Part shown: in pieces, positions 4,364 through 62,253 of the stretch
Layout of the letters: every line of letters begins with the position of its first letter
How positions within the stretch are numbered: the stretch's first letter is position 1
Assembly (NCBI GenBank): GCA_020438845.1
Contig: JAGQTV010000038.1
Span: forward strand, 1 to 64,000
Reading direction: 5' to 3'
Source of the DNA: Mycobacterium sp.
Lineage (GTDB): Bacteria; Actinomycetota; Actinomycetes; Mycobacteriales; Mycobacteriaceae
DNA length: 64,000 bases
Notes under the pieces: generated by a model
What the model was told of the DNA's origin: nothing
What the model saw: only the letters and a program-made list of their open reading frames with translations
Database searches by the model: none
Program-made: the position numbers and the translations under genes

Positions 4364-5446
<1,083 letters not shown>

Positions 5447-13023: not shown

Positions 13024-13198
13024 GACGCGACGGTAACACCCGGTGGGTAAACCGCACCTGACCTGGGGTCCAGGGCTGGTTGGTCCGGTTCGTCGAGGGA
13101 ATTACGACAGAATGTAGGACCGGGGGCACGCAACGCGCCCAATCGGGATAGGATGCGGCTAGGTTTCTTGGGATGCCCCTGTGATGGTTGGAGGATCT

Positions 13199-14923: not shown

Positions 14924-16168
<1,245 letters not shown>

Positions 16169-25383: not shown

Positions 25384-28251
25384 TCAATCGAATTTCAGCT
25401 GGATAAGGGAGCAGTCGTCCTCGAAGGATTCTTCACGTGTCAATGTCCGCAGTTCGGCGACGAGGTCATCGAGCGACCAGGCCTCTGATCCGACCATCCG
25501 GGTGACCAGGGTGCGGAAATCGTCCAAAGACAGCTGCCGGTCGTCATCGAGTTGAAGTTCATACGCTCCGTCGCTGAACAACAGGATCTGGCACCCGGGC
25601 GGAACCGCATACGTCGCGCAGGTGAACACGGTGTCTTCGAACATCCCGACCGGTTCCGAGGTCGCGGACAATTCCGTCATTGCTGCTGCAGTGCCGTCAG
25701 CTGAATTGAAGGCGAAGGCCGGCGGGGCACCGGCGCTGGCATAACGCAGCACGCGGTTGGACGCCTCGTAGACCCCTATCCACATGGTGAAGTAGTGGTC
25801 GTTTTGTCGATCCATCTGGAACAGGCCGTTCAACCCGGCCAGCACGGCTTCCGGTGCGGGCACGGCTTCTTGGGCGAGAGAACCGGACCGCAGCATGTTG
25901 TGCACGGAAACCGCCAGGAGTGCTGGTTCGACGCCATGCCCGGAAACGTCGATCATGTAGACCAGCAGGTGATCGTCGTCCATCCAGTTGTAGTAGAAAC
26001 AGTCACCACCGAGTTCCTGGGCCGGCAGATATCGCGACGACACGGCTACCTTGCCGGTGAGGCTGCGCGGCATGATTGACTTCATGTAGTCAGCGGCCCT
26101 GGCCAGTTCCACCGCCATCTGGTCGCTTTGCCGTTGGAGGCGCTGCGTCAGGATGAGGTTGCGTTCCTCGGCCTGAATGGTGGCGGTGACGTCGACGACT
26201 TGTGAAATGAACAGCTCGAGCTGAGCGTCGTCGTCGCGCACGCAGCCCACTGACGAATCGCCCCAGATCCGGTGGCCGTTGGCGTGAATGTACTGCTTGA
26301 GCAGTCGGTAGGAGTCAATGCGCCCGGTCTTGACGTCTTCGACGTACTTCAAATCCACTTCCAGGTGCTCCGGCGCGGTCAACTCCTGCCAGGTCTTCTG
26401 TGTCAGAGTTTCTGCGTCGTAGCCGAACAAGTCGCAGAGCGCGTTGTTGACCTCGAGCAAGCGCCCGTCCGGCGCGATGAGACACATCCCGACCGCCGCG
26501 CTTTCCACCGCGCGGCGCAGGCGTGCGTCGGCTCTCGCCCGCTCCTCCGCCTGCTGAGCCGCCACCTCGGCATCGATCACACGGAATGCGCTGCGAATGC
26601 CGTCCTGTCTACCGTCGGCGTCGTAGAAGGGCTTGGCGAAGAGGTGAACCCAATGAGTCACGCCGTCCAGCGACCTCACCCGCGCGCGGCCCTTCACCGC
26701 CCCTCCCTCGGCGAGAGTCTTCACCCTGGCGAAGTGGGCCGATTCTTCCTCGGGCGGAACGATCTCCAGTTCGGCCCGGCCCAGCCAGTATTCGGGCGGC
26801 GCGCCCAGCACATCCTCGACGGACGGCGACGACCACACGAACTTGCCGTCGCGGATGAGCATGACCACGTCTGCGGCGTTCTCAGCCAGCAAACGGTATT
26901 TCTCTTCGGAGTCGGCAATGCGTCGCACGAGGTCGGAACGCTCCGTGACGTCCCGCCACGTGAGGTTCAGCCGATCGGCACTGGTTCGAGTGGCACGAAT
27001 GTCGTAATGCCGGACGGCTTGCAGGATCTCGCTGAAAAATGGGAAGTCATCGAGGACTACCGGTTCGCCGTCCTCCAGGCACTGGAAGAACCGCCGTTGT
27101 AGGTCCGAGTTACGCAGAGTCGGCGACACTTCAAGTTGGGTACGGCCGATCAATTGGCTGCGCCCGAGCCCGAGCCCGAGTTCGGCCACGGCGGCGCTGT
27201 TGACGGTGAGATACCGGAGGTCGACAACCTGTCCGGCGGAATCGCGGACCGCTTCCAGCAACGTTTGTGGGTCGAGCATGCTGTCGGCGATGGCACGTAG
27301 CTGGTTGCGTTCCGATTCGGCGACCTCGTACTGTTTCCGCTCGCGCTCGCCCAGGTAGAGCGCCAGCAAACCGACCGCAACGGTGCTGACGGCGGTCGAG
27401 AAAGTCAACGCAGCATCTCGTCCGACGCCGAGGGTGAGGAAAATGCGCCGCGACAGCCCCACGAGAAGCGGAAAGCCTGCGATGACAAGGCCCAGTCGGA
27501 CCCGCGAACCCTGGTCGGTTCTAGAGATCAGCCAGGCTATTGGAGCCCGGTCGGGTCGAGCGAGCAGCGCGGCAGCGCCGAGGAAGAGCAAGCCAATAGC
27601 GGTCAGCAGCGACATCCCCGTTGACGTTGCGACCACCACGACGTCCAGGGCATCGAAGACATAAGCCAGGACTGCGATTCCCGGAAGTGTCATCGCAACG
27701 ATCGAACTCACCGTCCAGACCACGCTGGCCCACCGGCGATTCAGCTGAGTGAGCCCAACGGGGGTGGACAGCAAGAGGGTCGCCACCGCCGTATGCGGAC
27801 TGGGCCGGCCGGGCCACGTCGTGTCGAGCGCAGAGACGGCGTTACCGAACCAGATCAGATCCACCCCGAACCCACGACCGGTCGCATACTCCACGAGGAC
27901 GAGCGCGGCGGCGGCGCCCACCACCAACGACAAAACTCGCCCCGCCCAGATCCGGGCTTTTGAAGGGTGGCCCGATTGCAGCAGGATCGCCGCACCCAAT
28001 GCCGCGAGCCACAGCGCCGTCCACGGCGTCATTTCCGGCCAGGTCGAAACGATCCGGGTCAACACCGGGATACCGGCCACCCACCCGACCCAATCCAGCG
28101 TCGCGAGGGCGATTACCAGCACCGCCGCTGCGAATCCCAACCGAACCGATGCCGTCACAGGGGTCAGTCGAGTGGCTGCCGGAGTCATGGCGCCGACGCG
28201 AACGCTCTGCACAAAGTGAGGGCTCCCGATCTCGCTGGAGACGGCTTTCAC
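25384..28251 (-). CDS. Membrane PAS-SpoIIE (PP2C-type) serine phosphatase
   Basis: 955 residues from GTG 28251; ATG 28188 is an alternative. Residues about 30-310 contain around eight hydrophobic helices, forming a membrane sensor region. Three PAS-like segments follow (about 320-440, 450-580 and 590-700). The C-terminal SpoIIE-type domain keeps the metal-binding Asp residues: LGGDCFYYNW, MIDVSGHGVEPAL, FSDGAYEL and EDDCSLIQL. Such enzymes usually dephosphorylate anti-anti-sigma factors in partner-switching pathways controlling alternative sigma factors; no anti-sigma or STAS gene is adjacent. It occupies the place between the Rv3034c-like and Rv3032-like genes. Confidence 0.9.
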   Translation of the reverse strand: MKAVSSEIGSPHFVQSVRVGAMTPAATRLTPVTASVRLGFAAAVLVIALATLDWVGWVAGIPVLTRIVSTWPEMTPWTALWLAALGAAILLQSGHPSKARIWAGRVLSLVVGAAAALVLVEYATGRGFGVDLIWFGNAVSALDTTWPGRPSPHTAVATLLLSTPVGLTQLNRRWASVVWTVSSIVAMTLPGIAVLAYVFDALDVVVVATSTGMSLLTAIGLLFLGAAALLARPDRAPIAWLISRTDQGSRVRLGLVIAGFPLLVGLSRRIFLTLGVGRDAALTFSTAVSTVAVGLLALYLGERERKQYEVAESERNQLRAIADSMLDPQTLLEAVRDSAGQVVDLRYLTVNSAAVAELGLGLGRSQLIGRTQLEVSPTLRNSDLQRRFFQCLEDGEPVVLDDFPFFSEILQAVRHYDIRATRTSADRLNLTWRDVTERSDLVRRIADSEEKYRLLAENAADVVMLIRDGKFVWSSPSVEDVLGAPPEYWLGRAELEIVPPEEESAHFARVKTLAEGGAVKGRARVRSLDGVTHWVHLFAKPFYDADGRQDGIRSAFRVIDAEVAAQQAEERARADARLRRAVESAAVGMCLIAPDGRLLEVNNALCDLFGYDAETLTQKTWQELTAPEHLEVDLKYVEDVKTGRIDSYRLLKQYIHANGHRIWGDSSVGCVRDDDAQLELFISQVVDVTATIQAEERNLILTQRLQRQSDQMAVELARAADYMKSIMPRSLTGKVAVSSRYLPAQELGGDCFYYNWMDDDHLLVYMIDVSGHGVEPALLAVSVHNMLRSGSLAQEAVPAPEAVLAGLNGLFQMDRQNDHYFTMWIGVYEASNRVLRYASAGAPPAFAFNSADGTAAAMTELSATSEPVGMFEDTVFTCATYAVPPGCQILLFSDGAYELQLDDDRQLSLDDFRTLVTRMVGSEAWSLDDLVAELRTLTREESFEDDCSLIQLKFD

Positions 28252-48405: not shown

Positions 48406-51087
48406 ATGGTTTCAGCATCAGGGACGGAGGCAATGGCAAGCGTGCCGATGCCGGATGCGGTCCCGGCAGATTTCGTCGCCGGCCAGGCGGGCCAAGCCAT
48501 CGCGGACGACTACGTTTCCACGGTCCTGGTAGTCGACGACAACGCTCAACTGCGTGAGTTGCTCTGTGCGGTGCTTGCGCCGTTGAACTGCGACACCGTC
48601 GCGGTGGGTTCCGGTGAGGAAGCGCTCACCGAGTTGTTGCGGCGCAAGGTCGCTGTGATCATCCTCGATGTCAAGATGCCTGGGATCGACGGGTTCGAAA
48701 CCGCCCAGCTGATCCGAGAAACCGAAGACTTCGCCACGACGCCGATCATCTTTCTCACCGGCGAGGCCGGGGCAGACAGTGATCTGGAAAAGGGCTATCG
48801 GCTGGGCGCGGTCGATTTCCTGATCAAGCCTGTTTCCCGGCATGTGCTCTTCGCCAAGGTCAAGGCCCTGCTGGAACTGGATCAGTCCTTCGCCCGGCTG
48901 AGGCACGAAGCCGCGGAGTTTCACACCCAGCAACTCCGTGCGGCCCGCGAAGCAGAGGTCAGGCAGCGCGAGGAGTTGATCTTCACCCAGCGACGGGAAC
49001 GGCTGACCAACATCTTTGCCGAAGCGAGCATCGACGTGAAGGCCTTACAGGAAGCCATCGTCGCTGAGGTGAGTCAGTTGTTCGACGCCGATTGCGGGCT
49101 GCGCCTGTCGTCGCCCGGTCACGGTTGGCATGAACCTCTCTCGCTCGCCGTCTCCGGTGACACCTGTCCGGTGATGGAAGCCTGGCTGGTCGGGCGTCCG
49201 GCGGAGCAGGGTCAGCGGGCGGCGCCTTACGACCAGATGATGGTGGAGGATTTGACTGCCCGAGGGCGGGGTGTCGGTGTTCTCTGCGTCGGACGACCCG
49301 ACGGTCGTCCTTTCTCTGACATCGAAGCTGCGCTGTTTCGGGGGGTATCGGTCGCCGCGGCCCTGGCGGTGTCCAACGCGACCCTCTATCAGGTTCAGGC
49401 CGAGTATGCGGCCGTCATGCAAGCCAGCGGCGACGCGATCCTCGCCGTCGATTCCTCAGGTGCCATCCGCAGCTGCAACAAGGCGGCGGCAGCCTTGTTC
49501 GGGGGAGATGCGGACACCCTGATCGGCCGTTCCATCCTGGAATTCGCCGCCGACGCCGATCGAGAGCGGCTGCGGGAGCGGGTGATCAATAACCTCGCAT
49601 CACAGGAAGGTTCGTTGGAGATGGTGTGCGTCTCCCGGGACGGACGTCATGTCGAGGTCGCGGTGACGTTGTCCCCGATCGGCGATTCGGTCGAACTGCA
49701 CGTCGCGGCGGTGGTCCATGACCTGACCGAGATCAAACGTGCGCAGAGCGAAATCCGGCATCTGGCCAGCCACGACCCCCTGACCGGCCTGGCCAACCGA
49801 CGAGAGTTGAACGCCCGGCTTGTCGACGTGGTTGCCGACCACGAGATCAGCGGGGATGTAGCGGCACTGCTGTACATGGACGTCAACCACTTCAAGGCGG
49901 TCAACGACACCTATGGTCACGATGCCGGGGACGACTTGTTGGTGGCCGTGGCCAATCGAATTCGAGCCGCGGTACGTGCCGAAACGCTGGTAGCCCGTAT
50001 CGGCGGGGACGAGTTCGTCGTCTTACTGGAACATCTCCCATCGGTGAGCGCTGCCGCGGCAGCCGGAAACCGAATTCTGAAACAAATTCAGACTGAACCG
50101 ATTTCGTGCCGAAACGCCACCATTAAACCCTCCGTGAGTATGGGCATCGGCTGCCTGGGCGACACCGCCGGGGACCCCGACGAGTTGCTGTCTCACGCCG
50201 ACCTGGCGATGTTCGCGGCCAAGAGCAACGCCCTGGAAGAGGCCGTTGTCTACACCGATCTGATCGGATCGCGATACCGGGAGAAATCCCACCTGCGAGC
50301 CAGATTGCCGGAGGCCCTGGAACGTTCCGAAGTTCGCATGGTTTACCAGCCGATCGTCCATGCCGAGACGGGCGCCTTGTTCGGCATCGAAGCCCTTATT
50401 CGTTGGCAGGTGGGCGACGAGGAGGTGCCTCCCCGCGAGATCGTCTCGCTGGCTGAGACTTCCAATCAGATGGGGGCGCTCGGTCAATGGATTTTGAGGC
50501 GTAGCTTCCGGGATTACCTGGCTCTGGGCAGAAGCGATCTGCGTCTGCATGTCAATCTGTCACCCCACCAACTGCTCGAAGCCGGCTTTCTGGAAGAACT
50601 GACCAACGCCTGCCGGGACAGCGAGCTGACCCCGGCCACCGTGTGTCTGGAACTCACCGAACACGCTTTCAGCAGAGAGCCTGCTCCGGCCTACGCGGCG
50701 TTGCGCAGGGCCAAGGACTTCGGGTTCAGCCTGGCGATCGACGAATTCGGGGTGGAATACGCCAGCATGACCAATCTGCTCGAGGTACCTGCCGACTGGC
50801 TCAAGATCGATCGATCCTTCATCGCCGGCCTGCTCGAGAGCGAACGACTGCAACGGCTTGTGCGCGGACAGATCGCGGTTGCTGCATCCATGCAGGTGGA
50901 TCTGATCGCGGTGGGAGTCGAGACCCAGGCGCAGGCCGACTGGCTCCGAGAGGCAGGATGTGTACTGCACCAGGGCTTCTTGTATAGCCAGCCCGTCGAG
51001 ACCGATGAACTGGCCGCTCTGATCGGGAGGCACTGGCCAGGACGTCGCGAACAGCCCGGAACCGACGATGGAAGCAGTGCAGTGTGA
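48406..51087 (+). CDS. Response regulator with GAF-PAS-GGDEF-EAL output; GGDEF intact, EAL degenerate
   Basis: 893 residues from ATG 48406 (ATG 48430 is possible). N-terminal receiver (about 38-155) with VVDDN, the phospho-acceptor D88 in ILDVKMPG, LTGEA and IKPV. A coiled coil, a GAF-like domain (about 205-325) and a PAS domain (about 330-445) follow. The diguanylate cyclase domain has an intact GGDEF (533-537), but the inhibitory RxxD is RAET. In the EAL domain E662, the Asn of VNLSPHQ and the Glu of LELTEH remain, but DDFGTGYS is DEFGVEYA (D779-E780) and the Glu of the usual AEGVE motif is V836. A c-di-GMP synthase is therefore more likely than a hydrolase. Its stop overlaps the kinase start, so phosphorylation by that kinase is the natural inference. 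Confidence 0.9.
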   Translation: MVSASGTEAMASVPMPDAVPADFVAGQAGQAIADDYVSTVLVVDDNAQLRELLCAVLAPLNCDTVAVGSGEEALTELLRRKVAVIILDVKMPGIDGFETAQLIRETEDFATTPIIFLTGEAGADSDLEKGYRLGAVDFLIKPVSRHVLFAKVKALLELDQSFARLRHEAAEFHTQQLRAAREAEVRQREELIFTQRRERLTNIFAEASIDVKALQEAIVAEVSQLFDADCGLRLSSPGHGWHEPLSLAVSGDTCPVMEAWLVGRPAEQGQRAAPYDQMMVEDLTARGRGVGVLCVGRPDGRPFSDIEAALFRGVSVAAALAVSNATLYQVQAEYAAVMQASGDAILAVDSSGAIRSCNKAAAALFGGDADTLIGRSILEFAADADRERLRERVINNLASQEGSLEMVCVSRDGRHVEVAVTLSPIGDSVELHVAAVVHDLTEIKRAQSEIRHLASHDPLTGLANRRELNARLVDVVADHEISGDVAALLYMDVNHFKAVNDTYGHDAGDDLLVAVANRIRAAVRAETLVARIGGDEFVVLLEHLPSVSAAAAAGNRILKQIQTEPISCRNATIKPSVSMGIGCLGDTAGDPDELLSHADLAMFAAKSNALEEAVVYTDLIGSRYREKSHLRARLPEALERSEVRMVYQPIVHAETGALFGIEALIRWQVGDEEVPPREIVSLAETSNQMGALGQWILRRSFRDYLALGRSDLRLHVNLSPHQLLEAGFLEELTNACRDSELTPATVCLELTEHAFSREPAPAYAALRRAKDFGFSLAIDEFGVEYASMTNLLEVPADWLKIDRSFIAGLLESERLQRLVRGQIAVAASMQVDLIAVGVETQAQADWLREAGCVLHQGFLYSQPVETDELAALIGRHWPGRREQPGTDDGSSAV

Positions 51088-54000
51088 ATCTCGCAAACCG
51101 ATTGGCGATCCTGGCCGGCTCGGCATTGTTGTCCATCATTCTTGCGGCGGGCATGTTCACCTGGCAGACCGCCCGTATCTCAAATCTTTACGAAAAGCGT
51201 TTCGAGGCAAGCCAAGCCGCCTCCACAGCGCTGACCATCGATGGGGACCTGACCGAATTCGTCACGGCAGCCTACGGTCTGTTGTTCGTCAAGGATCAGG
51301 GGCGGCGTGCCGAACTGTCCGCGGCGGTGGACCGACTGGGGAAAGCGATCGACGCGGAGCTTCGCGAAGCGACAGATCAAGCCGGGCAGGACAGCGATCG
51401 ACTGCTGTACCAGTCTGCTCTCTCGAGCTGGACAACCTTCCGGTCGCTCTACCAGGCCCCACGGGACGCAGTGCCGGAGGCTGGACAGGCAGCTGCTGCA
51501 ACGCTCCTGGACAGCCAGACCGCCCCCGTCGAAGGACAAATTCAGCGCATCGTTGACCAGGATGAGCTCGCCATCCGGCAGGCTGATGCAGCGGCGCGGG
51601 CGGCGATACACACCAGCCGGATCGTCATCTGGGTCGCTTCGACCGTGATCGTGCTCGGGCTGGGTGTGCTGCTCTTCCTCACCAGCCGGAAGATCTATCA
51701 CGCGGTAAATCAAGCCACCGAAAAGTCCGAACGAGCAAGGCGGTTCAAGGAAACTCAAGCGGACCTGATGACCGAGGTACAAGGCGAGACCGACCTGGCC
51801 GGTGCGTGCGGGATCATCGTGACGCGCACGGCGCAGGCACTGGGCGCCAGCCACGGAGCCTTTTATCTGAAGCAGACCACTGACGTGCCCCGCTTCGCCC
51901 TGATGGCGTCCTACGCCTTCCACCGCCGCAAGGACTTGCCGAACTCGTTCGGACTGGGGGACGGTCTCGTCGGTCAATGCGCCTTGGAGGGGCAGCGCAT
52001 CGAAATCACCGAGGCCCCGGCCGATTACGTCGAGATCGTTTCGGGGCTGGGCAAGACCCAGCCGGTTTCGCTGATTCTGGTTCCCGTCATGTTCGAGTCC
52101 GAAGTCCTCGGCGTTCTGGAGTTCGCCTCACTTCGCCCCTTCTCCCACGACGACAATGAGCTCTTGGACAGCGTGGCGCTGGGAGCCGGAGTTGCCATCG
52201 CTGCGATCGAAGCGGCGCAGAAGACCCGGGAACTGCTACAGGTGTCCAAGGCCCAGACCGAAGAACTCCAGACCCAGGAGGAGGAACTTCGCGCGGCCAA
52301 TGAGCAGCTGATCCAACGCGAAGAACGGCTGTCTGCGCAGAATGCGGAACTGGAGGAGCAAACCGAGCAACTGCGCTCACAGAAGGAAGAACTGAAGGCG
52401 AGTTCCGAGACGCTCGAAGCGCAGGCCGACGCGCTGGAGAAAAAGAACGACGAACTGCATCGCCTCAGTAAATCGCTGGAGGCGAAGGCCGAAGATCTGG
52501 CCGTCGCGTCCCGGTACAAGTCGGAATTCCTGGCCAACATGTCGCACGAACTGCGCACGCCGCTGAACAGCATCCTGATCCTGGCAGGTCTTCTCGGTGA
52601 CTCGGGTGATCCGCTGACCGAGAAACAGCAGGAATTCGCGGAGACGATCGAACAGTCGGGGCGCGACTTGCTGAATCTCATCGATGAGGTCTTGGATCTC
52701 GCGAAGGTCGAATCTGGCTCGTTGCGCTTCGAACAGGAAGACATCGACATCACTCAGCTCGTCAGTTTCCTGGAGAGGACCTTCCGGCCTATCGCCGAGA
52801 ACAAGGGGGTGGTCTTCCGTGTCGTGGTCAACGAGAGTGCTCCGCGGGAGATCACGAGCGACTACACGCGGGTGAAACAGATCGCGAAGAATCTCGCGGC
52901 GAATGCAGTGAAGTTCACCGATGAGGGATCGGTCACGGTGACGCTCTCGGGGGCCGCTGACACCCAGGGCAATCCCGGAGATCGTTATCTCGCGATCGCC
53001 GTCACCGACACCGGCATCGGGATCGACAAGGTCGACCACAACCTGATCTTCGAATCGTTCCAGCAGGCAAATCGTGGATCCACCCGGCAGTACGGCGGTA
53101 CTGGTCTTGGCCTGGCCATCAGTCGCGATCTGGCCCGCCAGCTGGGTGGTGAGATAACGCTGATCAGCGCACCGGGACAAGGTTCGACCTTCACGTGTTA
53201 TCTGCCTGTCCGAGTTGGGCCCGGTGCCGAAAACCAGCGGGGAGGGGCGCCGACGCCCGCAGCGGCCGCCAGGAGTGCCGCCAGCCCGGTGCCGTCGGCG
53301 GTTGCGTCCAGCGCCCCCGTCGGCGCACCCGTCCCCGTCGAGGCGCCGATTGCTCGGGTGACCGGGACTGTAGAGAGTCGGCAAGCCGAATCCGCACCGG
53401 CCGAAGAGTCGGTGGACATCTCGGACGTCGCCTGGCCGGATGGGGAAAGACCGGTCCTGTTGATAGTGGAGGACGATCGGACCTTTGCCGGGATGTTGGC
53501 CGAACTGGCCAGGGAGACAGGCTTCGATGCGGTCATCACACCGAGCGGTCGTGCGGCCCTGGCCCTGGCCCGGGAACGTCAACCCGCCGCCATCTCCCTG
53601 GATATCGGCCTACCCGACATGGCGGGCTGGGTTGTTCTGGATGTCCTCAAACACGATCTTGCGACCCGACACATACCGGTGGACATCGTTTCCGGTGCAA
53701 CGGATGTCGCTCGTGGTCGCCGGATGGGCGCCATCCATACGCTGAGCAAACCCGCCGACGTCACCGCCATCCGTTCGATGTTGCGGGCCACCGCTGAGTT
53801 TCTGCGGCCGGGACCGCGGCAGGTGCTGGTGGCGGCTGCCGACGATGACAAACAGCGTGCGTTGTCGGAAACCCTGATGGAGGGCGGCGATATTTCCATC
53901 GCCACGGTCAGCACCGGCGAACAAGTGCTGGCCGAGTTGAACGGACCGACGCACTACGACTGCCTGGTCCTCGATCTCGGATTGCCCGACATCGACGGGA

Positions 54001-54662
54001 TCGACCTCATTGAACGCATCAAGGACCAAGTCAACGAGGCGAGTCTGCCGGTGATCGTGCACACCGACCGGGAATTGACCGCTGCCGAAACAGAACGACT
54101 GGAAGTGCTGGCCGCCGCCATCGTTCTGAAGAATGCGAAATCGCCGGAGAGGCTGCTCGACGAGACCGCGCTGTTCCTGCACCGTGTGGCCGACGACCTA
54201 CCGGATGAGGCTCGCGCGATCCTGGCCAATCCGACGCCGTTCGACGAGTCACTCAAGGGCAACACGGTTCTCCTCGTCGACGACGACGTGCGAAACGTCT
54301 TCTCGCTCGGCAGCGCGTTGAAGCGGTACGGCATTACGGTGGTCCCGGCCCGCAACGGGCAGGAGGGAATTGACAACCTCGCCGCTCATCCAGAGATCGA
54401 CCTCGTTCTGATGGACATGATGATGCCCGTGATGGACGGGTATGAGGCGATGCGCCGTATCCGTAGCGAGGCCCGGTGGCGAGACCTGCCCATCGTCGCG
54501 CTCACTGCGAAGGCCATGAAGGGCGACCGGCAGAAGTGCCTGGACGCGGGTGCTTCCGATTACGTCACAAAGCCCGTCGACATGGATCAACTCACCTCCG
54601 TTCTCCGGGTGTGGTTGGCCAGCCGGCCCCGACGGGTGCGAGGACTCTCCGAGCAGCGATGA
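51084..54662 (+). CDS. Membrane hybrid histidine kinase with GAF, long coiled coil and three receivers
   Basis: 1192 residues from GTG 51084, overlapping the previous stop. TM1 is at about residues 8-25 and TM2 at about 180-205, enclosing an external helical sensor domain. GAF domain about 230-370, then a coiled coil (about 375-475) with Leu every seventh residue and Glu/Gln pairs before them. HisKA has H488 in NMSHELRTPLN; HATPase has NLAANAVKF, DTGIGI and GGTGLGLAI. An Ala/Pro-rich linker (about 715-780) leads to receivers with Asp at D840, D964 and D1111; the third has the most canonical motif (LMDMMMPVMDG, KPVD). No HPt domain is visible. Translationally coupled to the GGDEF protein upstream and the CheR protein downstream. 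External signal unknown. Confidence 0.93.
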   Translation: MNLANRLAILAGSALLSIILAAGMFTWQTARISNLYEKRFEASQAASTALTIDGDLTEFVTAAYGLLFVKDQGRRAELSAAVDRLGKAIDAELREATDQAGQDSDRLLYQSALSSWTTFRSLYQAPRDAVPEAGQAAAATLLDSQTAPVEGQIQRIVDQDELAIRQADAAARAAIHTSRIVIWVASTVIVLGLGVLLFLTSRKIYHAVNQATEKSERARRFKETQADLMTEVQGETDLAGACGIIVTRTAQALGASHGAFYLKQTTDVPRFALMASYAFHRRKDLPNSFGLGDGLVGQCALEGQRIEITEAPADYVEIVSGLGKTQPVSLILVPVMFESEVLGVLEFASLRPFSHDDNELLDSVALGAGVAIAAIEAAQKTRELLQVSKAQTEELQTQEEELRAANEQLIQREERLSAQNAELEEQTEQLRSQKEELKASSETLEAQADALEKKNDELHRLSKSLEAKAEDLAVASRYKSEFLANMSHELRTPLNSILILAGLLGDSGDPLTEKQQEFAETIEQSGRDLLNLIDEVLDLAKVESGSLRFEQEDIDITQLVSFLERTFRPIAENKGVVFRVVVNESAPREITSDYTRVKQIAKNLAANAVKFTDEGSVTVTLSGAADTQGNPGDRYLAIAVTDTGIGIDKVDHNLIFESFQQANRGSTRQYGGTGLGLAISRDLARQLGGEITLISAPGQGSTFTCYLPVRVGPGAENQRGGAPTPAAAARSAASPVPSAVASSAPVGAPVPVEAPIARVTGTVESRQAESAPAEESVDISDVAWPDGERPVLLIVEDDRTFAGMLAELARETGFDAVITPSGRAALALARERQPAAISLDIGLPDMAGWVVLDVLKHDLATRHIPVDIVSGATDVARGRRMGAIHTLSKPADVTAIRSMLRATAEFLRPGPRQVLVAAADDDKQRALSETLMEGGDISIATVSTGEQVLAELNGPTHYDCLVLDLGLPDIDGIDLIERIKDQVNEASLPVIVHTDRELTAAETERLEVLAAAIVLKNAKSPERLLDETALFLHRVADDLPDEARAILANPTPFDESLKGNTVLLVDDDVRNVFSLGSALKRYGITVVPARNGQEGIDNLAAHPEIDLVLMDMMMPVMDGYEAMRRIRSEARWRDLPIVALTAKAMKGDRQKCLDAGASDYVTKPVDMDQLTSVLRVWLASRPRRVRGLSEQR

Positions 54663-55513
54663 ACGTGCCCGACGAGGAGTCCGGGTCGCAGTGGTCCCGG
54701 GAGCTGACGCGGATCGAGGCGGAGGCATTCTTTTACACGGTCTACGAGCATCTCGGACACGACTTCCGGCACTACAGTGACGCATCCCGGAATCGTCGGC
54801 TGGTGGGATTCGTGCGCAGGCATTCGCTCGGCACCATTTCCGAGGCGCAGGGAAGGGTTCTGCGCGACCCCGAGCTCCAATCGGCCTTCCTGTCCGAAAT
54901 GACGGTCAACGTGACCGAAATGTTCCGAGATCCCCAGGTGTTCGCCAAGATTCGCACCGAATTGGTGCCCCGGCTGGCGACCTATCCGCGAATACGGGTG
55001 TGGGTGGCCGGCTGCGCGACGGGGGAGGAGGCCTATTCCATGGCCATCTTGCTCGCCGAAGTCGGCTTGCTCGAGCGGACCACCATTTACGCGACCGACA
55101 TCGACACCGTCTCGCTGCGGACCGCCACCGCGGCGATCTACCCGGCCGACGCGATGATCCGTGCCACCCGCAACTACCAGGCCAGCGGAGGCGACAGGCC
55201 ATTCTCGGATTGGTACCTCGCCAGATACGACCGCTGCATTCTCAGCCCCGACCTACGGCCGCGCATCGAATTCTTCTCCCACAATCTGGCCACCGACAGC
55301 ACGTTCGCGGATTTCCACCTGATCTTGTGCCGCAACGTGTTCATCTATTTCGAGCACAGCCTTCAGCGCCGCGTGGAACTTCTTTTCTGGGAGAGTCTGG
55401 TGCCCTTCGGCCATCTCGTCATTGGTCCGCGGGAAACCCTCACGCCCGAGAGTGCCAAGCAGTTTGCCCCGTTGGACCGCAGGCTGGGAATCTATGTCAA
55501 GCGTCACGACTAG
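54659..55513 (+). CDS. CheR-type protein-glutamate methyltransferase
   Basis: 284 residues from ATG 54659, which overlaps the kinase stop (ATGA). The N-terminal CheR helical domain contains MTVNVTEMFRDPQVF; the SAM-binding domain contains VWVAGCATGEEAYSMAILL, TIYATDIDTVSL and LILCRNVFIYFE, all standard CheR motifs. Known CheR enzymes methylate glutamates of chemoreceptor coiled coils. No chemoreceptor is present; the coiled coil of the coupled hybrid kinase is the most likely substrate (inference). Confidence 0.92.
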   Translation: MNVPDEESGSQWSRELTRIEAEAFFYTVYEHLGHDFRHYSDASRNRRLVGFVRRHSLGTISEAQGRVLRDPELQSAFLSEMTVNVTEMFRDPQVFAKIRTELVPRLATYPRIRVWVAGCATGEEAYSMAILLAEVGLLERTTIYATDIDTVSLRTATAAIYPADAMIRATRNYQASGGDRPFSDWYLARYDRCILSPDLRPRIEFFSHNLATDSTFADFHLILCRNVFIYFEHSLQRRVELLFWESLVPFGHLVIGPRETLTPESAKQFAPLDRRLGIYVKRHD

Positions 55514-56144
55514 CGCGTCGGTGCCGAACGTCATCGTCTTCGGAGGCAGCGCCGGTGGCATGAATGCGCTGAAAGGGATTTTCGAGACTTTCGACCAGAT
55601 CGGAAACAGCATCGTCGTCGTGGTTCTGCACCGCGACCCGAAGGATTCACCATTGGCCGAGGTGCTGCAGAACTACACAACCATCCCGATCCGCGAACCC
55701 GACGACAGCCCCTGGACGCCTCCGGAAGGGGTGGTCGCGGTGGCCCCGGCCGGATACCACCTTCTGCTCGGCAATACCCGAACACTCGTGTCAGAACCCC
55801 CGACCCCGGTCTCCCTCTACGAGAACGGCACTGGTGTGCGGACCCACCTGACTCTGGACCCGCCCGTCGCGTACTCCCGTCCCTCGCTGAACGTAACCTT
55901 CTCCAGCGCAGCCGAACTCGTCAACCCCGTGACAGTTGTCCTGCTGTCGTGCGCGAACGACGACGGTGCGCGCGGCTGTGAGGTGGTGAAAGCATCGGGG
56001 GGAAGAGTGGTGCTCCAGGATCCGGCCTCGTGCCAGGCGCCCACCGCGGTCAACTCGGCGATGCGCACGGTGCAACCGGACTTCGTTGCCGATCCGCGGG
56101 CGATCGGTATGTGGCTGTCGCGGAACGCCGCTCGGGGCAGGTGA
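55494..56144 (+). CDS. CheB-type protein-glutamate methylesterase without receiver domain
   Basis: 216 residues from ATG 55494, overlapping the CheR gene by 20 bases. It is only the CheB catalytic domain. The catalytic triad can be placed at S19 (FGGSAGGMNAL), H46 (VVLHRDP) and D157 (SCANDDGARG, in place of the usual GMGxDG). Lacking a receiver, it cannot be activated by phosphorylation in the E. coli manner; constitutive activity or control by protein contacts is implied. Last gene of the signalling operon, 277 bases before hucS. Confidence 0.88.
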   Translation: MSSVTTSASVPNVIVFGGSAGGMNALKGIFETFDQIGNSIVVVVLHRDPKDSPLAEVLQNYTTIPIREPDDSPWTPPEGVVAVAPAGYHLLLGNTRTLVSEPPTPVSLYENGTGVRTHLTLDPPVAYSRPSLNVTFSSAAELVNPVTVVLLSCANDDGARGCEVVKASGGRVVLQDPASCQAPTAVNSAMRTVQPDFVADPRAIGMWLSRNAARGR

Positions 56145-56421: not shown

Positions 56422-57393
56422 ATGGCGTCTGTTCTGTGGTTCCAAGGAGGAGCGTGCAGTGGTAACACCATGTCGTTCCTCAACGCTGAGGAACCCAATG
56501 TCGTCGACCTGATCGTCGACTTCGGGCTGGACCTGATCTGGCATCCGTCGCTGGGTCTGGAATTGGGCGCCAATGCCCAGAAGCTGTTCTGGGATTGCGC
56601 CAAGGGTGAGCGTCCGTTGGACGTCTTCGTCTTCGAGGGCACGGTCATCGAGGCTCCGAACGGCACCGGCCGAATGGACATGTTCGCCGACCGCCCGATG
56701 AAGGACTGGGTGACTGACTTGGCCAAGCAGGCCGGGATCGTCGTCGCGATCGGTGACTGCGCCTGCTGGGGCGGCATCCCGGCGATGGAGCCCAACCCGT
56801 CGGCCTCAACGGGCTTGCAGTTCCACAAACGCAACAAAGGCGGCTTCCTGGGCCCGAACTTCAAGTCCAAGGCCGGCCTGCCGGTGATCAACATCCCCGG
56901 CTGCCCGGCCCACCCGGACTGGATCACCCAGATCATCGTTGCGCTGGCCACCGGCCGCACCGGGGATATCGCACTCGACGAACTGCAGCGCTCGCAGACC
57001 TTCTTCAAGACCTTCACCCAGACCGGTTGCACCCGAGTGCAGTTCTACGAGTACAAGCAGTCCACCGAATCGTTCGGCGAAGGCACCCGCACGGGTTGCC
57101 TGTTCTACGAGTTCGGCTGCCGCGGACCGATGACCCACTCGCCGTGCAATCGGATCCTGTGGAACCGGCAGTCGTCGAAGACCCGTGCGGGTCATCCCTG
57201 CATCGGTTGCACCGAGCCGGAGTTCCCGCACTTCGACCTCGCACCGGGGACTTTGTTCAAGACCCAGAAGGTCGCCGGGGTGATCCCGAGGGAAACCGGC
57301 ACCGGAACCAAGACGCTGACCTACATGGCTGCTGCCGCCGCGGCCAGGCTGGCCGCCCCGAAATGGTCCAAAGAGGACATGTTCGTGGTGTAG
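56422..57393 (+). CDS. hucS: Group 2a uptake [NiFe]-hydrogenase small subunit
   Basis: 323 residues from ATG 56422 with GAGAGGAG upstream. No Tat signal, as in group 2a enzymes. Start SVLWFQGGACSGNTMSFLN has only C12, with N15 in place of the second Cys of the usual CTGC proximal-cluster motif. Other cluster ligands lie in GDCACWGGIPA, IPGCPAHPDW, GCLFYEFGCRGPM, THSPCNRILW and HPCIGCTEPEFP. The sequence is close to cyanobacterial HupS and mycobacterial HucS as I remember them. Huc oxidises atmospheric H2 and feeds electrons to menaquinone; its three clusters are known to be [3Fe-4S], which suits the lost Cys. hucL follows after 49 bases. Confidence 0.95.
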   Translation: MASVLWFQGGACSGNTMSFLNAEEPNVVDLIVDFGLDLIWHPSLGLELGANAQKLFWDCAKGERPLDVFVFEGTVIEAPNGTGRMDMFADRPMKDWVTDLAKQAGIVVAIGDCACWGGIPAMEPNPSASTGLQFHKRNKGGFLGPNFKSKAGLPVINIPGCPAHPDWITQIIVALATGRTGDIALDELQRSQTFFKTFTQTGCTRVQFYEYKQSTESFGEGTRTGCLFYEFGCRGPMTHSPCNRILWNRQSSKTRAGHPCIGCTEPEFPHFDLAPGTLFKTQKVAGVIPRETGTGTKTLTYMAAAAAARLAAPKWSKEDMFVV

Positions 57394-57442
57394 CCCCCGC
57401 CCCGAGACCCGCTGCCAATCAGAACTTTTGGAGGATTTTCCC

Positions 57443-59050
57443 ATGACCTCACTGGATCTCCACGTCAGTCCGCTCGGTCGCGTCGAGGGCGACCTCGACG
57501 TCCGGGTCACAATCGACGACGGGGTCGTCACCTCGGCGTGGACCGAGGCCGCCATGTTCCGCGGCTTCGAGATCATCCTGCGCGGCAAGGACCCACAGGC
57601 CGGCCTCGTCGTATGTCCCCGTATTTGCGGCATCTGTGGCGGAAGCCACCTGTACAAGTCGGCCTACGCGCTGGACACCGCTTGGCGCACCACGATGCCC
57701 GCTAACGCCACCCTGGTGCGCAACATCGCCCAGGCCTGCGAAACCCTGCAGTCCATTCCGCGCTATTTCTATGCGCTGTTCGCCATCGACCTGACCAACA
57801 AGAACTACGCCAAGTCCTCGCTGTACGACGAGGCAGTTCGCCGCTTCGCGCCCTACGTCGGAACCTCGTACCAAAAGGGTGTGGTGCTCTCCAACAAGCC
57901 CGTCGAGGTCTACGCGATCTTCGGCGGCCAGTGGCCGCACTCCAGTTTCATGGTGCCCGGTGGGGTCATGGGCGCGCCGTCGCTGTCCGACGTGACCCGT
58001 TCGACGGCGATCCTGGAGCACTGGAAGGACAACTGGCTCGAGGCCGTGTGGTTGGGGTGCAGCGTGGATCGCTGGCTGGAGAACAAGACCTGGGAGGACG
58101 TGCTGGCCTGGGTCGACGAGAACGAGTCGCAGTACAACAGCGACTGTGGCTTCTTCATCCGCTACTGCCTCGACATCGGACTGGACAAATACGGCCAGGG
58201 GGTGGGCAACTACATCTCCACCGGCACCTACTTCGATCCGGCGCTGTATCAGCGCCCGACCATCGAGGGGCGCAACGCCGCCCTGATCGGCCGGGGCGGC
58301 GTCTTCGCCGACGGTCAGTACTACGAGTTCGACCAGGCCAAGGTGCGCGAGGACGTGACCCACTCCTTCTATCAGGGCAACAGGCCGTTGCATCCCTTCG
58401 AGGGCGAGACCATTCCCGTCGACCCGGAGAAGGGCAAGACGCAGGGCAAGTACAGCTGGGCCAAATCGCCACGCTACGAGGTGGGTGACTCCGGCACCAT
58501 CCCGTTGGAGGCCGGCCCGCTGTCGCGGCGGATGGCTGCTGCCGGGCCGGGGGCGGCCAAGCATCAGGACAACGACCCGCTCTTCCTCGACATCTATAAC
58601 AAGATCGGGCCCAGCGTCATGGTCCGCCAGCTGGCCCGGATGCACGAGGCGCCGAAGTACTACAAGTGGGTGATGGGGTGGCTCAAGCAACTCGACCTCA
58701 AGGGCAGCTTCCACAAGAAGCCCACCGAACACGCTGAAGGCAAGGGCTTCGGCTCGACAGAAGCCGCCCGGGGTGCGCTGAGCGACTGGATCGTCATCGA
58801 GAACAGCAAGATCAAGAATTACCAAGTGGTGACTCCGACGGCGTGGAACATCGGCCCGCGCGACGGCAGCGAGCAGCTCGGCCCGATCGAGAAGGCGCTG
58901 GTGGGCTCGCCGATAGTCGACCCGGAGGATCCTGTCGAACTGGGCCATGTGGCACGCAGTTTCGACTCCTGCTTGGTCTGCACCGTGCACGCCTATGACG
59001 GCAAGACCGGCAAGGAACTGTCGAAGTTCGTCATCAACGGCATGGTCTGA
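57443..59050 (+). CDS. hucL: Group 2a uptake [NiFe]-hydrogenase large subunit
   Basis: 535 residues from ATG 57443, preceded by GGAGG; a start at 57428 overlaps that site. The L1 nickel motif is R60-ICGIC-GGSH69 (C62 and C65). The L2 motif is FDSCLVCTVH with C510, C513 and H516, having Ser where most groups have Pro. Residues 517-535 after H516 are the tail normally removed by the maturation protease, whose gene follows. It carries the Ni-Fe(CN)2CO site that splits H2. Accessory hyp genes needed to build this site are not in the window. Confidence 0.96.
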   Translation: MTSLDLHVSPLGRVEGDLDVRVTIDDGVVTSAWTEAAMFRGFEIILRGKDPQAGLVVCPRICGICGGSHLYKSAYALDTAWRTTMPANATLVRNIAQACETLQSIPRYFYALFAIDLTNKNYAKSSLYDEAVRRFAPYVGTSYQKGVVLSNKPVEVYAIFGGQWPHSSFMVPGGVMGAPSLSDVTRSTAILEHWKDNWLEAVWLGCSVDRWLENKTWEDVLAWVDENESQYNSDCGFFIRYCLDIGLDKYGQGVGNYISTGTYFDPALYQRPTIEGRNAALIGRGGVFADGQYYEFDQAKVREDVTHSFYQGNRPLHPFEGETIPVDPEKGKTQGKYSWAKSPRYEVGDSGTIPLEAGPLSRRMAAAGPGAAKHQDNDPLFLDIYNKIGPSVMVRQLARMHEAPKYYKWVMGWLKQLDLKGSFHKKPTEHAEGKGFGSTEAARGALSDWIVIENSKIKNYQVVTPTAWNIGPRDGSEQLGPIEKALVGSPIVDPEDPVELGHVARSFDSCLVCTVHAYDGKTGKELSKFVINGMV

Positions 59051-59058
59051 CTCCGGGC

Positions 59059-59895
59059 GTGGCCGACGCTGAACACCCTTTGGCAGAACACACAGCGGCC
59101 GAACAGTCCGGCGTGGACATCGACCCGCCGGGGTACGACGCCCTCGTAGTCGGTTGTGGCAACCTGCTGCGGGGGGACGACGGTGTGGGTCCCGTTCTGG
59201 TGCGCCACCTTTGGGACCGCGGCGTACCCAACGGTGCGCGGCTGGTCGACGGCGGAACCGCTGGGATGGACGTCGCATTCCAAATGCGGGGAGCGGCGCG
59301 GGTCGTGATCGTCGACGCCTCGATGACGGGCGCCGCGCCGGGAACGGTGTACCGGGTACCGGGCGAGGAACTGGCCGACCTGCCACCGCTACAGGGTCTG
59401 CACACCCACTCGTTCCGCTGGGACCACGCGATTCCGTTCGCCCGTTGGGCGCTCGGTGACGCCTGCCCCACCGACATCACCGTGTTTCTCATCGAAGCCG
59501 CCGACGTCGAGATGGGTGCCGAGTTGTCCGAACCGGTGCAGACGGCCATGGAGCAGGTGATCGAGGCGATCGAGCGGGACTTCTTCGCCCCGTTGCGCCC
59601 CCAGACGGCGAACTGCGTCAGTGTCGAGATCACCGCCGAGGGATACCTGCGGCTGGACTCAGGCTTGGCCGCCAGCCGGTTTCCCTCCGACGCGGTGGCG
59701 GCAGTGCTGCGCGACGACGCGCTGTGGCTGATTCCGTTGCGTGGCCCCAGCAGCGGCGGTCTGCTGCTGAAACAACGCAATCCGGCGGGAGACCGCGCCG
59801 TTCTGGTTCGCGACGTGCTGCCGGAAGGTTTCCCGGTGGGCGTCCGTACGGCATTCTGGGACGATGACCGCAGGGCGCTCCGAATCCCGGGGTGA
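59059..59895 (+). CDS. Hydrogenase maturation protease with C-terminal extension
   Basis: 278 residues from GTG 59059, eight bases after hucL. Residues about 28-175 match HupD/HybD endopeptidases: VVGCGNLLRGDDGVGP with the first nickel-sensing acidic residue, DGGTAGMD, IVDASMTG and a His in HTHSFRWDH. These enzymes clip the HucL tail once nickel is inserted. Family members are usually 150-195 residues; here about 85 extra residues (from about 190 on) form a separate hydrophobic/Arg-containing module (ALWLIPLRGPSSGG) that I do not recognise. Overlaps the next gene. Confidence 0.88.
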   Translation: MADAEHPLAEHTAAEQSGVDIDPPGYDALVVGCGNLLRGDDGVGPVLVRHLWDRGVPNGARLVDGGTAGMDVAFQMRGAARVVIVDASMTGAAPGTVYRVPGEELADLPPLQGLHTHSFRWDHAIPFARWALGDACPTDITVFLIEAADVEMGAELSEPVQTAMEQVIEAIERDFFAPLRPQTANCVSVEITAEGYLRLDSGLAASRFPSDAVAAVLRDDALWLIPLRGPSSGGLLLKQRNPAGDRAVLVRDVLPEGFPVGVRTAFWDDDRRALRIPG

Positions 59896-60143
59896 TGCTC
59901 ATGACTGAGCAGCGACCCAAGACCGTTGTCCGTCAAAACAGCTCCACCGACGAGGCACTGGACGTGCAGACCGTCGTGGTCGAGGAGCGCGGCCGGTGGG
60001 CCGTTGAGATCGTCGTGGTCTTCGCCGACGGCGTGGTCCGGAAAAGGATCGACACCCATGCCAGCCGGGCCCGCGCCGAATTATCGGCCAACCTGATCAG
60101 ACGCGCCGCTGAACGCAACATCACCGGCCCCGTGAACGGGTGA
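59895..60143 (+). CDS. Small conserved-looking protein of the hydrogenase operon
   Basis: 82 residues from ATG 59895 (overlapping the protease stop) or 80 from ATG 59901. A polar N-terminus leads to a short alpha/beta core: LDVQTVVVEERGRWAVEIVV, VRKRIDTHASRARAEL and LIRRAAERNIT. No Cys, signal peptide or membrane segment. Family not recognised; strict packing between the protease and TPR genes indicates a role in hydrogenase function or assembly. Confidence 0.72.
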   Translation: MLMTEQRPKTVVRQNSSTDEALDVQTVVVEERGRWAVEIVVVFADGVVRKRIDTHASRARAELSANLIRRAAERNITGPVNG

Positions 60144-60154
60144 GGGAGGAAAAC

Positions 60155-61393
60155 GTGGCTGCAACCGAAGCAGCGAGGCAAACCGTCCTGGCGGTCCGGC
60201 CTCAGCCGCTGGGAGTCTTCCCGCTGCCCCTTGGTTACCTGTTGATCCGGGCCTCGCCTGCGACCGAGGGCGCCCGCATGGACCTGCTGGCCGGTCGGCT
60301 GCCGGACTGGCCGGAGGCCTTGCGCGCCCACAAGCTGGCATCAGCCGGAGACCGGGAAGGTGCATTGTCGGCTCTGGAGGGCGCCGATCCAGTCTCCCGC
60401 TACAACCGCTTCGTGATGGATCCCGATTCCGAGGATCCCGACGAGTTGCGTTCGGAATTAGGTGAATTCGGTGTGCTGGTCGACGTGGTCCAGTTCGCCC
60501 TGGGGCGCTGCGATACCGCTCCGGCGGTTGGTGCGGCCACCGGCGAACTGGCGGCGGTGGTGCTGTCCACACAGGCCGGTCAGGCTCTCGACGAGGGCGA
60601 TGTGACCGGTGCGCTGGCGTTTCTGGACCGGGCTGCCGAGGCGGCCGCCGGAGTGTCCGAACCGCTGCGCGGCGTGCTGCTCGGCGCGTCCGGGTCGATC
60701 AGCCAGGCCGCCGACGCGGTCAGTCGCTACGAGCGGGCGCTGCGTGCCCTCGACGGTGCCGGGGACCTGCGGGTAGCGCGGGCCGAACTGCACCTGGCCC
60801 TGGCCGGGGTGTTGCACGAACAGTCCGTGGACCGGCCTGAAATGTTGGCTCGCGCTGTGCCGCATTACCATTCGGCGCTGCAACTGGTGCTGCGAGCGGA
60901 GGCGCCCCTGCTCTGGGCCGCCGCGCACGCCAACCTGGCGACCGCCTATCTGACCATGCCGATGACCGAGGCCTCAAGTCAATTGCGGCTGGGTGTCGCA
61001 GCGCAGTCGCTGCGCTCGGCGCTGAAGGTCTACACCCGGGAGGACCATCCCGAGCAGTGGGCCAGCGTGCAGCTGAACCTGGCCAATTCGCTGGTGTACA
61101 CGCCGTCGAACCATCAGGCCGACAACCTGGTTGAGGCAGTGGAGCTCTATGAGGCAGTGCTGGCTGCCCGTGACCGACACACCGACCCCCTGGGCCGGGC
61201 GCGGGTGTTGGCGAATCAGGGCAATGTGCTGGCCCACCTCGGCGACTTCGACCAGGCCAAGGCCAAACTCTATGACGCCCGCTTCCTGTTCGAGGAACTC
61301 GGTGACGATGACTCGGTGCGCACCGTACGCGGGGTGCTCGACGAGATTGCCCGCCAACAGGCGCTGGCCCGAACAGAAGCGACGCCTCAATGA
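60155..61393 (+). CDS. TPR-repeat protein of the hydrogenase operon
   Basis: 412 residues from GTG 60155, chosen for the GAGGGAGG site just upstream; GTG 60140 is in frame. No catalytic motif. From about residue 45 it is all helical with tetratricopeptide-like repeats, for example AHKLASAGDREGALSALEGA, LLWAAAHANLATAYL, WASVQLNLANSLVY and RVLANQGNVLAHLGDFDQAKAKL. Such proteins act as binding scaffolds; in this operon a role in hydrogenase assembly or in presenting it to a partner is inferred. Its stop overlaps the NifU-Rieske gene (ATGA). Confidence 0.82.
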   Translation: MAATEAARQTVLAVRPQPLGVFPLPLGYLLIRASPATEGARMDLLAGRLPDWPEALRAHKLASAGDREGALSALEGADPVSRYNRFVMDPDSEDPDELRSELGEFGVLVDVVQFALGRCDTAPAVGAATGELAAVVLSTQAGQALDEGDVTGALAFLDRAAEAAAGVSEPLRGVLLGASGSISQAADAVSRYERALRALDGAGDLRVARAELHLALAGVLHEQSVDRPEMLARAVPHYHSALQLVLRAEAPLLWAAAHANLATAYLTMPMTEASSQLRLGVAAQSLRSALKVYTREDHPEQWASVQLNLANSLVYTPSNHQADNLVEAVELYEAVLAARDRHTDPLGRARVLANQGNVLAHLGDFDQAKAKLYDARFLFEELGDDDSVRTVRGVLDEIARQQALARTEATPQ

Positions 61394-62253
61394 GCGGGGC
61401 CGGGGCGTCGCCCGAGCCGACCTTCGAGGATCTGGCACAGCGAGTGGACGACGCTGTCGCCGCGCTGAACGATCTGGACCCTCCTGCCCGGAAAGTGGCG
61501 CAGGAGTTGCAGACTGCCGTGGAGTCCGTCCACCGCGCCGGCCTGGTCACCATCGTGCGCCGGTTGCGTGCCGATGATTCCACTCGCGATGTGCTCTTCG
61601 AGTTGGCCGACGACCCCGTGGTGCATCTGTTGCTGACGCTGCACGGGATCATTCGGCCGGATCCGTTGACCCATGCCCACCAGGTGCTGGATGCGGTCCG
61701 CCCGCAGTTGCACAGCCATGGCGGGGACGTGGTCCTGGTTGGGGTCGAGGACGGCACGGCATTCGTACGCCTGGAAGGGGCCTGCAACGGTTGCTCGATG
61801 TCCTCGGTGACTCTGCGGAACCTGGTGGAAGAGGCACTGCTGCAGGGAGTGCCTGCCATCACCGGGGTGGAGGTGGTGGCGAACGAGCCGACGCCGACGC
61901 TGATCCCGGTTGAGTCGCTGCGAATCGGCCCGGATCCGGCCGCTGAAGGTTGGGTGAAAGTCGCTCCTGTCGTTGATATTCCGGCTGGCGAGCTGTCGAC
62001 GGCCACCCTGGACGGGGTGAGCCTGCTGATCGTGAATGTCGGCAATCGGCTGTCGGCCTATCGCAACGAATGCGCCCACGAGGCACTGCCGCTGGACGAG
62101 GCCGAGCTTGACCTGTCCACCGGCACGCTCACCTGCCCGTGGCACGGGTTCTGCTTCGACGCGAGTTCGGGGGAGTGCCTGACCGCGCCGGGTGCCCAAC
62201 TCGAACAGGTTCCGCTACGCATCTACGACGGCGAGATTTGGGTGCGCCCTTAG
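61390..62253 (+). CDS. NifU-like/Rieske fusion iron-sulfur protein
   Basis: 287 residues from ATG 61390. The N-terminal 90 residues are helical. Residues about 95-165 form a NifU C-terminal domain with the cluster motif ACNGCSMSSVTL (C-x-x-C). Residues about 180-285 form a Rieske domain with CAHEALPL and CPWHGFCFD, giving C-x-H and C-x-x-H ligands for a [2Fe-2S] cluster. It is well suited to pass electrons from the hydrogenase or to deliver clusters to it. The mycobacterial huc operon is known to encode an iron-sulfur protein HucE; this is the probable counterpart, though I have not verified the homology. Confidence 0.88.
   Translation: MSGAGASPEPTFEDLAQRVDDAVAALNDLDPPARKVAQELQTAVESVHRAGLVTIVRRLRADDSTRDVLFELADDPVVHLLLTLHGIIRPDPLTHAHQVLDAVRPQLHSHGGDVVLVGVEDGTAFVRLEGACNGCSMSSVTLRNLVEEALLQGVPAITGVEVVANEPTPTLIPVESLRIGPDPAAEGWVKVAPVVDIPAGELSTATLDGVSLLIVNVGNRLSAYRNECAHEALPLDEAELDLSTGTLTCPWHGFCFDASSGECLTAPGAQLEQVPLRIYDGEIWVRP

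Follow-up and report, generated by a model that had tools for sequence, protein, structure and literature searches.

The stretch of DNA analysed here, referred to as the window, comprises positions 1 to 64,000 of contig JAGQTV010000038.1 from Mycobacterium sp. assembly GCA_020438845.1 (the source genome). It carries a unit of four plus-strand genes that overlap end to end and encode, according to open reading frame (ORF) and Pfam analysis, a response regulator, a hybrid histidine kinase, a CheR-type methyltransferase and a CheB-type methylesterase, in that order. Mycobacteria are non-swimming organisms, and CheR and CheB are enzymes that normally belong to chemotaxis. The genes of the unit and the sites discussed below are:

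48406..51087, plus strand: response regulator of 893 residues, with the domain order REC, GAF (sub-threshold), PAS, GGDEF and EAL (Pfam)
51084..54662, plus strand: membrane hybrid histidine kinase of 1192 residues, with GAF, HisKA, HATPase_c and three receiver domains (Pfam)
52212..52496, plus strand: coiled-coil signalling helix of the kinase, residues 377-471, the proposed methylation region (alignment)
52281..52298, plus strand: proposed methylation site 1, EELRAA, residues 400-405 (alignment)
52386..52403, plus strand: proposed methylation site 2, EELKAS, residues 435-440 (alignment)
52545..52547, plus strand: phospho-accepting histidine of the kinase, H488 (alignment)
54659..55513, plus strand: CheR-type methyltransferase of 284 residues (Pfam, 131 bits, 3.7e-38)
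55494..56144, plus strand: CheB-type methylesterase of 216 residues without a receiver domain (Pfam CheB_methylest, 107 bits, 1.3e-30)

The end-to-end overlaps claimed in the original prediction are borne out by the ORF coordinates: the regulator TGA and the kinase GTG share positions 51084-51087 inside GTGTGA, the kinase TGA and the CheR ATG share the four bases 54659-54662 (ATGA), and the last 20 bases of the CheR gene (55494-55513) are shared with the start of the CheB gene. Pfam likewise agrees with a three-receiver hybrid kinase, a CheR and a receiver-less CheB. The preceding GGDEF regulator is present, but its description was incomplete, as the protein is a REC-PAS-GGDEF-EAL protein with a strong EAL domain (1.1e-62), probably a phosphorylation-controlled enzyme of cyclic diguanylate (c-di-GMP); because the regulator belongs to the unit, the latter starts at 48406 rather than at 51084. 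The kinase consists of an N-terminal membrane sensor, which in the window yields only a sub-threshold Pfam match to a four-helix bundle, followed by GAF, a long E/Q-rich coiled coil, HisKA, HATPase_c and the three receivers. Among solved structures, the top match of CheR is 5ftw, and CheB matches CheB structures.

Conservation of the unit and absence of chemoreceptors

An orthologue of the unit's CheB occurs in 20 of 198 genomes of the genus, source included (E 1.9e-72 or better, 56-100% identity), and is separated by a clean gap from the next match at 6.6e-11; 51 further genomes hold weak matches only, and 127 of the 198 hold none at 0.001. Nineteen foreign mycobacterial loci were fetched, the close relatives L008 and L009 not being counted again beside L049 and L048. 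Seventeen of them are long enough for gene order to be judged, whereas L041 and L045 lie at contig ends and retain the remaining parts of the unit up to the contig end. The order regulator-kinase-CheR-CheB, whose loss in related species had been set in advance as a ground for refutation, is kept on one strand in all 17 complete foreign loci, with the regulator and kinase genes ranging from 14 bases overlapped to 6 bases apart (mechanical ORFs). CheB directly follows CheR in 20/20 loci including the source, and one more genome of the genus (L113), met in an order-wide draw, also has kinase-CheR-CheB. At the 17 complete loci, at least four kinds of flanking context recur and several more occur only once, and the window's own flanking site is common to none of them. 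Since the order holds while the flanks vary, the four genes stay together through changing surroundings.

The residues on which catalysis and phosphotransfer would depend are also largely conserved. The S-adenosylmethionine-site and active-site set of CheR (R90, D91, G118, G122, E123, D147, R225, N226 and Y230) is invariant in 20/20 mycobacterial copies. In the CheB triad, H46 and D157 are present in 20/20 copies and S19 in 19/20; the exception, at L053 (5482-6110, minus strand), shows an apparent frameshift just past the serine motif, which may be real decay or a sequencing error. H488 is found in all 19 mycobacterial and all 6 other kinases, the three receiver aspartates of the kinase in 19/19 mycobacterial copies, and both D88 of the regulator receiver and the GGDEF motif in 18/18, where the aspartate at the RxxD inhibitory-site position is missing throughout (18/18). 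The EAL domain is more variable. The second aspartate of its DDFG motif is replaced by glutamate in the window copy only (DEFG; aspartate in 17/18), with the first aspartate replaced by glutamine in one other copy, and the first glutamate of EGVET is valine in the window (VGVET), serine in one other copy and glutamate in 16/18; the remaining EAL residues examined are invariant (18/18). The altered motif residues of the window's regulator lie at 50740-50913. Given the catalytic roles that we take these EAL residues to have, the window's regulator copy may be without phosphodiesterase activity.

Sensor domains are less constant. Among the 18 mycobacterial kinases with a full N-terminus, 15 have sensors of a single type (39-44% identical to the window's) and three (L046, L052 and L053) carry a CHASE3 sensor with the rest of the unit conserved; Pfam CHASE3 was not found in the sensor of the window's kinase. 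As the flanking genes of L052 are those of loci with the other sensor type, sensors appear to have been exchanged within a constant kinase-CheR-CheB core.

The reported absence of a chemoreceptor, CheA or CheW from the window extends to the genome. Across the 118 contigs of the source assembly (4.53 Mb; estimated 99.78% complete, 2.41% contamination), searches for the MCPsignal domain of chemoreceptors and for the CheW domain shared by CheW and CheA each gave 0 matches, while each was positive in 7 of 14 control genomes. A canonical chemotaxis set elsewhere in the source genome, the other ground for refutation set in advance, was thus searched for and not found.

Receptor methylation sites follow a consensus of two adjacent Glx residues and, two residues on, two small residues. 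In the signalling helix of the kinase, site 1 reads EELRAA, EELRTA or EELRAT in 19/19 mycobacterial kinases, and site 2 keeps the motif in 17/19 (L041 and L043 depart from it) and E435 in 19/19. The two sites are spaced 35 residues, or five heptads, apart, and a third consensus match lies at residue 413 of the window kinase. Along its length (residues 386-463), the helix was matched at only two other places in the source genome, and both are CheB-CheR fusions, identified by profile and helix matches on contig C37 (L059):

4833-8006, minus strand: fused CheB-CheR-PAS protein
11940-15599, plus strand: fused CheB-CheR-PAS protein

The coiled coils of these proteins contain five (fusion 1) or four (fusion 2) motifs, mostly EELQAS or EELQAT at seven-residue steps. 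Ten other kinase matches of the source genome start in the last part of the helix, from residue 438 on, and none covers a whole site; when the helix was set against 29 further kinase or receiver loci from that genome (L067-L095), nothing matched at 1e-3. The two fusions are further CheR/CheB modules of the source genome, which also gave one weak CheR match on contig C40. Genes for a PAS-GGDEF-EAL protein and a hybrid kinase lie close to the fusions, which perhaps constitute a second receptor-less methylation module.

Relatives outside the genus and previously described systems

Among 397 genomes drawn across the order and representing 85 genera, five gave a CheR match at E 1e-40 or better, all of them from this genus and one being the source. 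A phylum-wide draw of 396 genomes gave 22 CheR matches at 1e-30, two of them from this genus. Eight of the 20 matches in other Actinomycetota are 42-45% identical and each adjoins a homologous kinase (8/8), with CheB next in seven; the eighth locus ends inside CheR. The other 12 are 32-38% identical, several of them lying in long frames with CheB nearby and resembling the C37 fusions, and no homologous kinase was detected beside these genes in the flanking stretches examined. Plasmids of Proteobacteria, Deinococcus and a Bacillaceae carry more distant relatives of CheR, with matches of any strength in 587 records and 40-48% identity among the best 40. In all six plasmid neighbourhoods first opened, a homologous hybrid kinase lies directly upstream of CheR. 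CheB follows CheR in Sphingomonas, Agrobacterium and Caballeronia, and ORF comparison did not detect it in the neighbourhoods of Deinococcus deserti, Ketogulonicigenium and Niallia. By annotation, a Sphingopyxis plasmid has the order response regulator-CheR-CheB, and Deinococcus QL22 a kinase followed by CheR but no CheB. The receiver of the window's regulator shares 42-46% identity with receivers encoded close to such clusters in Deinococcus, Caballeronia and four actinobacterial loci.

The kind of system represented by the unit is already known. In Bacillus cereus, RsbK is kept inactive by RsbM, which methylates its signalling helix (PMC4574943; methylation restated in PMC12848376), and the principle of a methylated sensor kinase was thus shown earlier. 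The RsbK-RsbM-RsbY system likewise combines a membrane sensor, GAF, a signalling helix and a hybrid kinase with receiver, and adjoins a CheR-type methyltransferase. This likeness was measured through the Niallia plasmid locus, not on the B. cereus proteins themselves: the Niallia genes encode a sensor-HAMP-GAF-kinase-receiver protein, CheR and a REC-SpoIIE protein, which is the RsbK-RsbM-RsbY architecture, and the kinase is 34.5% identical to that of the window over 678 residues and CheR 45%. The outputs differ, as RsbK-RsbM-RsbY acts through a REC-PP2C phosphatase on SigB, whereas the mycobacterial unit has a GGDEF-EAL regulator, CheB and three receivers in its kinase. Furthermore, RsbM is an orphan methyltransferase, described by its authors as having no cognate methylesterase (PMC4574943), whereas the mycobacterial CheR has CheB directly next to it at all 20 loci.

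A second comparison, made by description only, is with the Cfc system of Pseudomonas putida, in which a hybrid kinase is likewise clustered with CheB and CheR. There, the CHASE3/GAF hybrid kinase CfcA, whose gene heads the cfcABCDE cluster with its CheB/CheR genes, is needed for the diguanylate cyclase activity of the GGDEF/EAL response regulator CfcR (PMC4951495, PMC6849547). CfcA has been described as a salt sensor (PMC12421958), cfcA and cfcR orthologues occur together in P. resinovorans, and a 48% likeness between CfcD and CfcR was taken by the P. putida authors to argue for a shared kinase (PMC4951495). The available text of PMC4951495 and PMC6849547 demonstrates no function for CfcB or CfcC. 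In P. putida, CfcR is encoded outside the cfc cluster (Rup4959 versus PP_3761), whereas the mycobacterial regulator gene overlaps that of the kinase. The CfcA sensor combines CHASE3 and GAF; the window kinase has GAF and the sub-threshold four-helix-bundle match, and three of the 18 mycobacterial copies do have CHASE3. Wsp-type chemosensory pathways also link CheR/CheB adaptation to a GGDEF regulator, but do so through a chemoreceptor, CheW and CheA, for whose domains the source genome gave no match.

The suggestion that such a system was undescribed in mycobacteria is not supported. According to a survey published in 2021, 17 of 244 mycobacteria carry rsbK and rsbM; rsbM lies immediately after rsbK, and a receiver-diguanylate cyclase/phosphodiesterase gene with PAS is nearby, the neighbouring regulator being Mflv_0999 (PMC8115616); neither CheB nor chemotaxis occurs in the main text of that paper. 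M. smegmatis is reported to have no RsbM homologue (PMC10950880). Judged by description, both distributions are patchy within the genus (17/244 there, 20/198 here by CheB), and the window unit is very probably the same locus, already in print under another name. The survey surfaced through RsbM, direct searches for a mycobacterial CheR/CheB kinase system having given nothing relevant among their top-ranked results. If the reading proposed below is right, the name 'RsbK-RsbM' used in print for mycobacteria would conceal both a methylesterase and an output through c-di-GMP. What is distinctive about the mycobacterial unit is the cognate, receiver-less CheB beside the kinase, together with the co-translated regulator. 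Among the top-ranked results in the open-licence literature, no report was found of a dedicated CheB that takes methyl groups off a sensor kinase.

Proposed mechanism and alternative explanations

We propose, with a probability of roughly two in three, that CheR and CheB reversibly tune the membrane kinase through glutamates of its signalling helix, and that the kinase drives the c-di-GMP regulator, the whole forming a self-contained two-component unit. The kinase would sense a signal through its extracytoplasmic four-helix bundle and GAF domain and autophosphorylate at H488; the phosphate would pass to the receiver of the co-translated REC-PAS-GGDEF-EAL regulator, with the kinase's own three receivers acting as internal gates. 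The phosphorylated regulator would then change c-di-GMP, probably with a bias towards synthesis in the source genome because of the two altered motif residues of the window EAL. The targets of CheR would be glutamates of the coiled coil that joins GAF to the kinase domains, with the surroundings of E400/E401 and E435/E436 as the likeliest places, and CheB, which has no receiver, would strip the methyl groups, making the set point of the kinase reversibly adjustable without chemoreceptors, CheA or CheW. The sequences themselves provide the gene set, its order and coupling, the catalytic residues, the candidate sites and the absence of chemoreceptor and CheW-domain matches. The original prediction of a methylation-adapted kinase with c-di-GMP output thus stands as far as the CheR and CheB active-site residues, helix motifs, GGDEF and receiver are kept, while methylation, its effect on the kinase, phosphotransfer to the regulator and the c-di-GMP output are what we infer from them.

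Several observations weigh against this proposal. The helix of the window kinase holds three motifs where 0.75 are expected, which for a sequence so rich in E and Q is no more than a modest excess (P 0.04 with plain shuffling, 0.02 when the heptads are preserved); the motif also occurs outside the helix in 15/19 mycobacterial kinases, for the most part in the extracytoplasmic sensor or at the C-terminal end; and among the six non-mycobacterial kinases it is found in the helix of only one (L063) and is missing from the other five. On these grounds, the helix motif was rejected as proof of methylation. Of four plasmid neighbourhoods opened among the high-scoring kinase matches listed, three (Rhizobium, Bosea and Azospirillum) hold a regulator next to the kinase and lack CheR there, so kinases of this type can work without methylation. 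Receivers near the clusters of Sphingomonas, Agrobacterium, Ketogulonicigenium, L119 and L124 are only 33-38% identical to the regulator receiver. The phenotype that depends on cfcA in P. putida was retained when the remaining cfc genes were mutated (unpublished results quoted in PMC4951495). On the supporting side, and more telling than the motif statistics, likeness to the helix along its length is limited in the source genome to the CheB-CheR fusions; the gene order kept through changing flanks, the conserved catalytic residues, the lack of chemoreceptor and CheW-domain matches, the related kinase-CheR-CheB loci outside the genus, the similar receivers beside some of them and the RsbM and Cfc precedents also speak for the proposal.

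An unlikely alternative is that CheR and CheB mainly serve another target, such as the network of the CheB-CheR-PAS fusions or some other protein, and are merely carried along with the kinase. CheR methylation of a non-receptor, PhoP, has been reported (PMC8546571), and the occurrence of related kinases without CheR is in keeping with such a loose association. Against it stand the tight overlap and the gene order kept through changing flanks; in addition, the fusions have CheR and CheB of their own, and beyond them no protein of the source genome was found to carry the helix. A route to SigF, in which the methylated kinase would act as in RsbK-RsbM on a receiver-PP2C phosphatase of a partner-switching network and the GGDEF-EAL protein would be a side output, is regarded as quite improbable. 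SigF control through rsbK-rsbM has been proposed for mycobacteria (PMC8115616), the source genome contains 11 SpoIIE-type phosphatase matches, and the related Niallia kinase and CheR adjoin a REC-SpoIIE gene. However, a REC-PP2C partner of the RsbY type was found neither in the unit nor within about 1.5 kb on each side of the 11 SpoIIE loci, where the unit's four receivers matched nothing at 1e-3 (11/11), a search that a divergent receiver could escape; with the REC-SpoIIE protein of Niallia, the unit's regulator gave a match at 7.5e-11. The mycobacterial survey likewise states that it found no RsbY homologue (PMC8115616), and the conserved co-translated partner is the GGDEF-EAL regulator.

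A further reading takes the c-di-GMP arm to be non-catalytic, with the regulator serving as a c-di-GMP-sensing or protein-interaction output. The window EAL, with DEFG and VGVET in place of the DDFG and EGVET of most copies, fits this idea, whereas the GGDEF motif, the REC phosphorylation site and the other examined EAL residues are kept in 18/18 copies, and such an output is very improbable.

For the proposed reversible tuning of the kinase, it is somewhat favoured that methylation is truly reversible by the unit's own CheR and receiver-less CheB, which would amount to a chemotaxis-like memory in a mycobacterial c-di-GMP pathway without receptors or CheA. If so, the chemotaxis principle of adaptation by reversible glutamate methylation would act directly on two-component kinases, here in an order of which one of the 85 genera sampled yielded a CheR this similar (E 1e-40 or better). 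Its compactness, its overlapping genes and the lack of any detected chemoreceptor that would compete for the enzymes make the unit a good test case for kinase memory conferred by CheR and CheB.

Flanking genes and minor observations

The unit is flanked upstream by a gene read as gatB-like and downstream by [NiFe]-hydrogenase-like genes, which begin 277 bases after cheB on the same strand. This downstream region (56422-62253) includes genes resembling the small and large [NiFe]-hydrogenase subunits, both below family cut-offs, a hydrogenase maturation protease above its cut-off, and an NfuA-like gene below cut-off. Regulation of the gatB-like or hydrogenase-like neighbours was rejected as the general function of the unit because GatB and the two hydrogenase subunits were matched (more than 40% identity across half the query) at none of the 19 foreign loci and window-like flanks at none of the 17 complete ones; a local role in the source strain is possible. 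A consensus scan for operon signals gave one promoter-like and four terminator-like matches, with no excess over shuffled sequence (0.9 and 5.3, respectively). Elsewhere in the window, one of the 11 SpoIIE matches of the source genome belongs to a 955-residue PAS protein with a SpoIIE-type phosphatase domain, encoded on the minus strand at 25384-28251.

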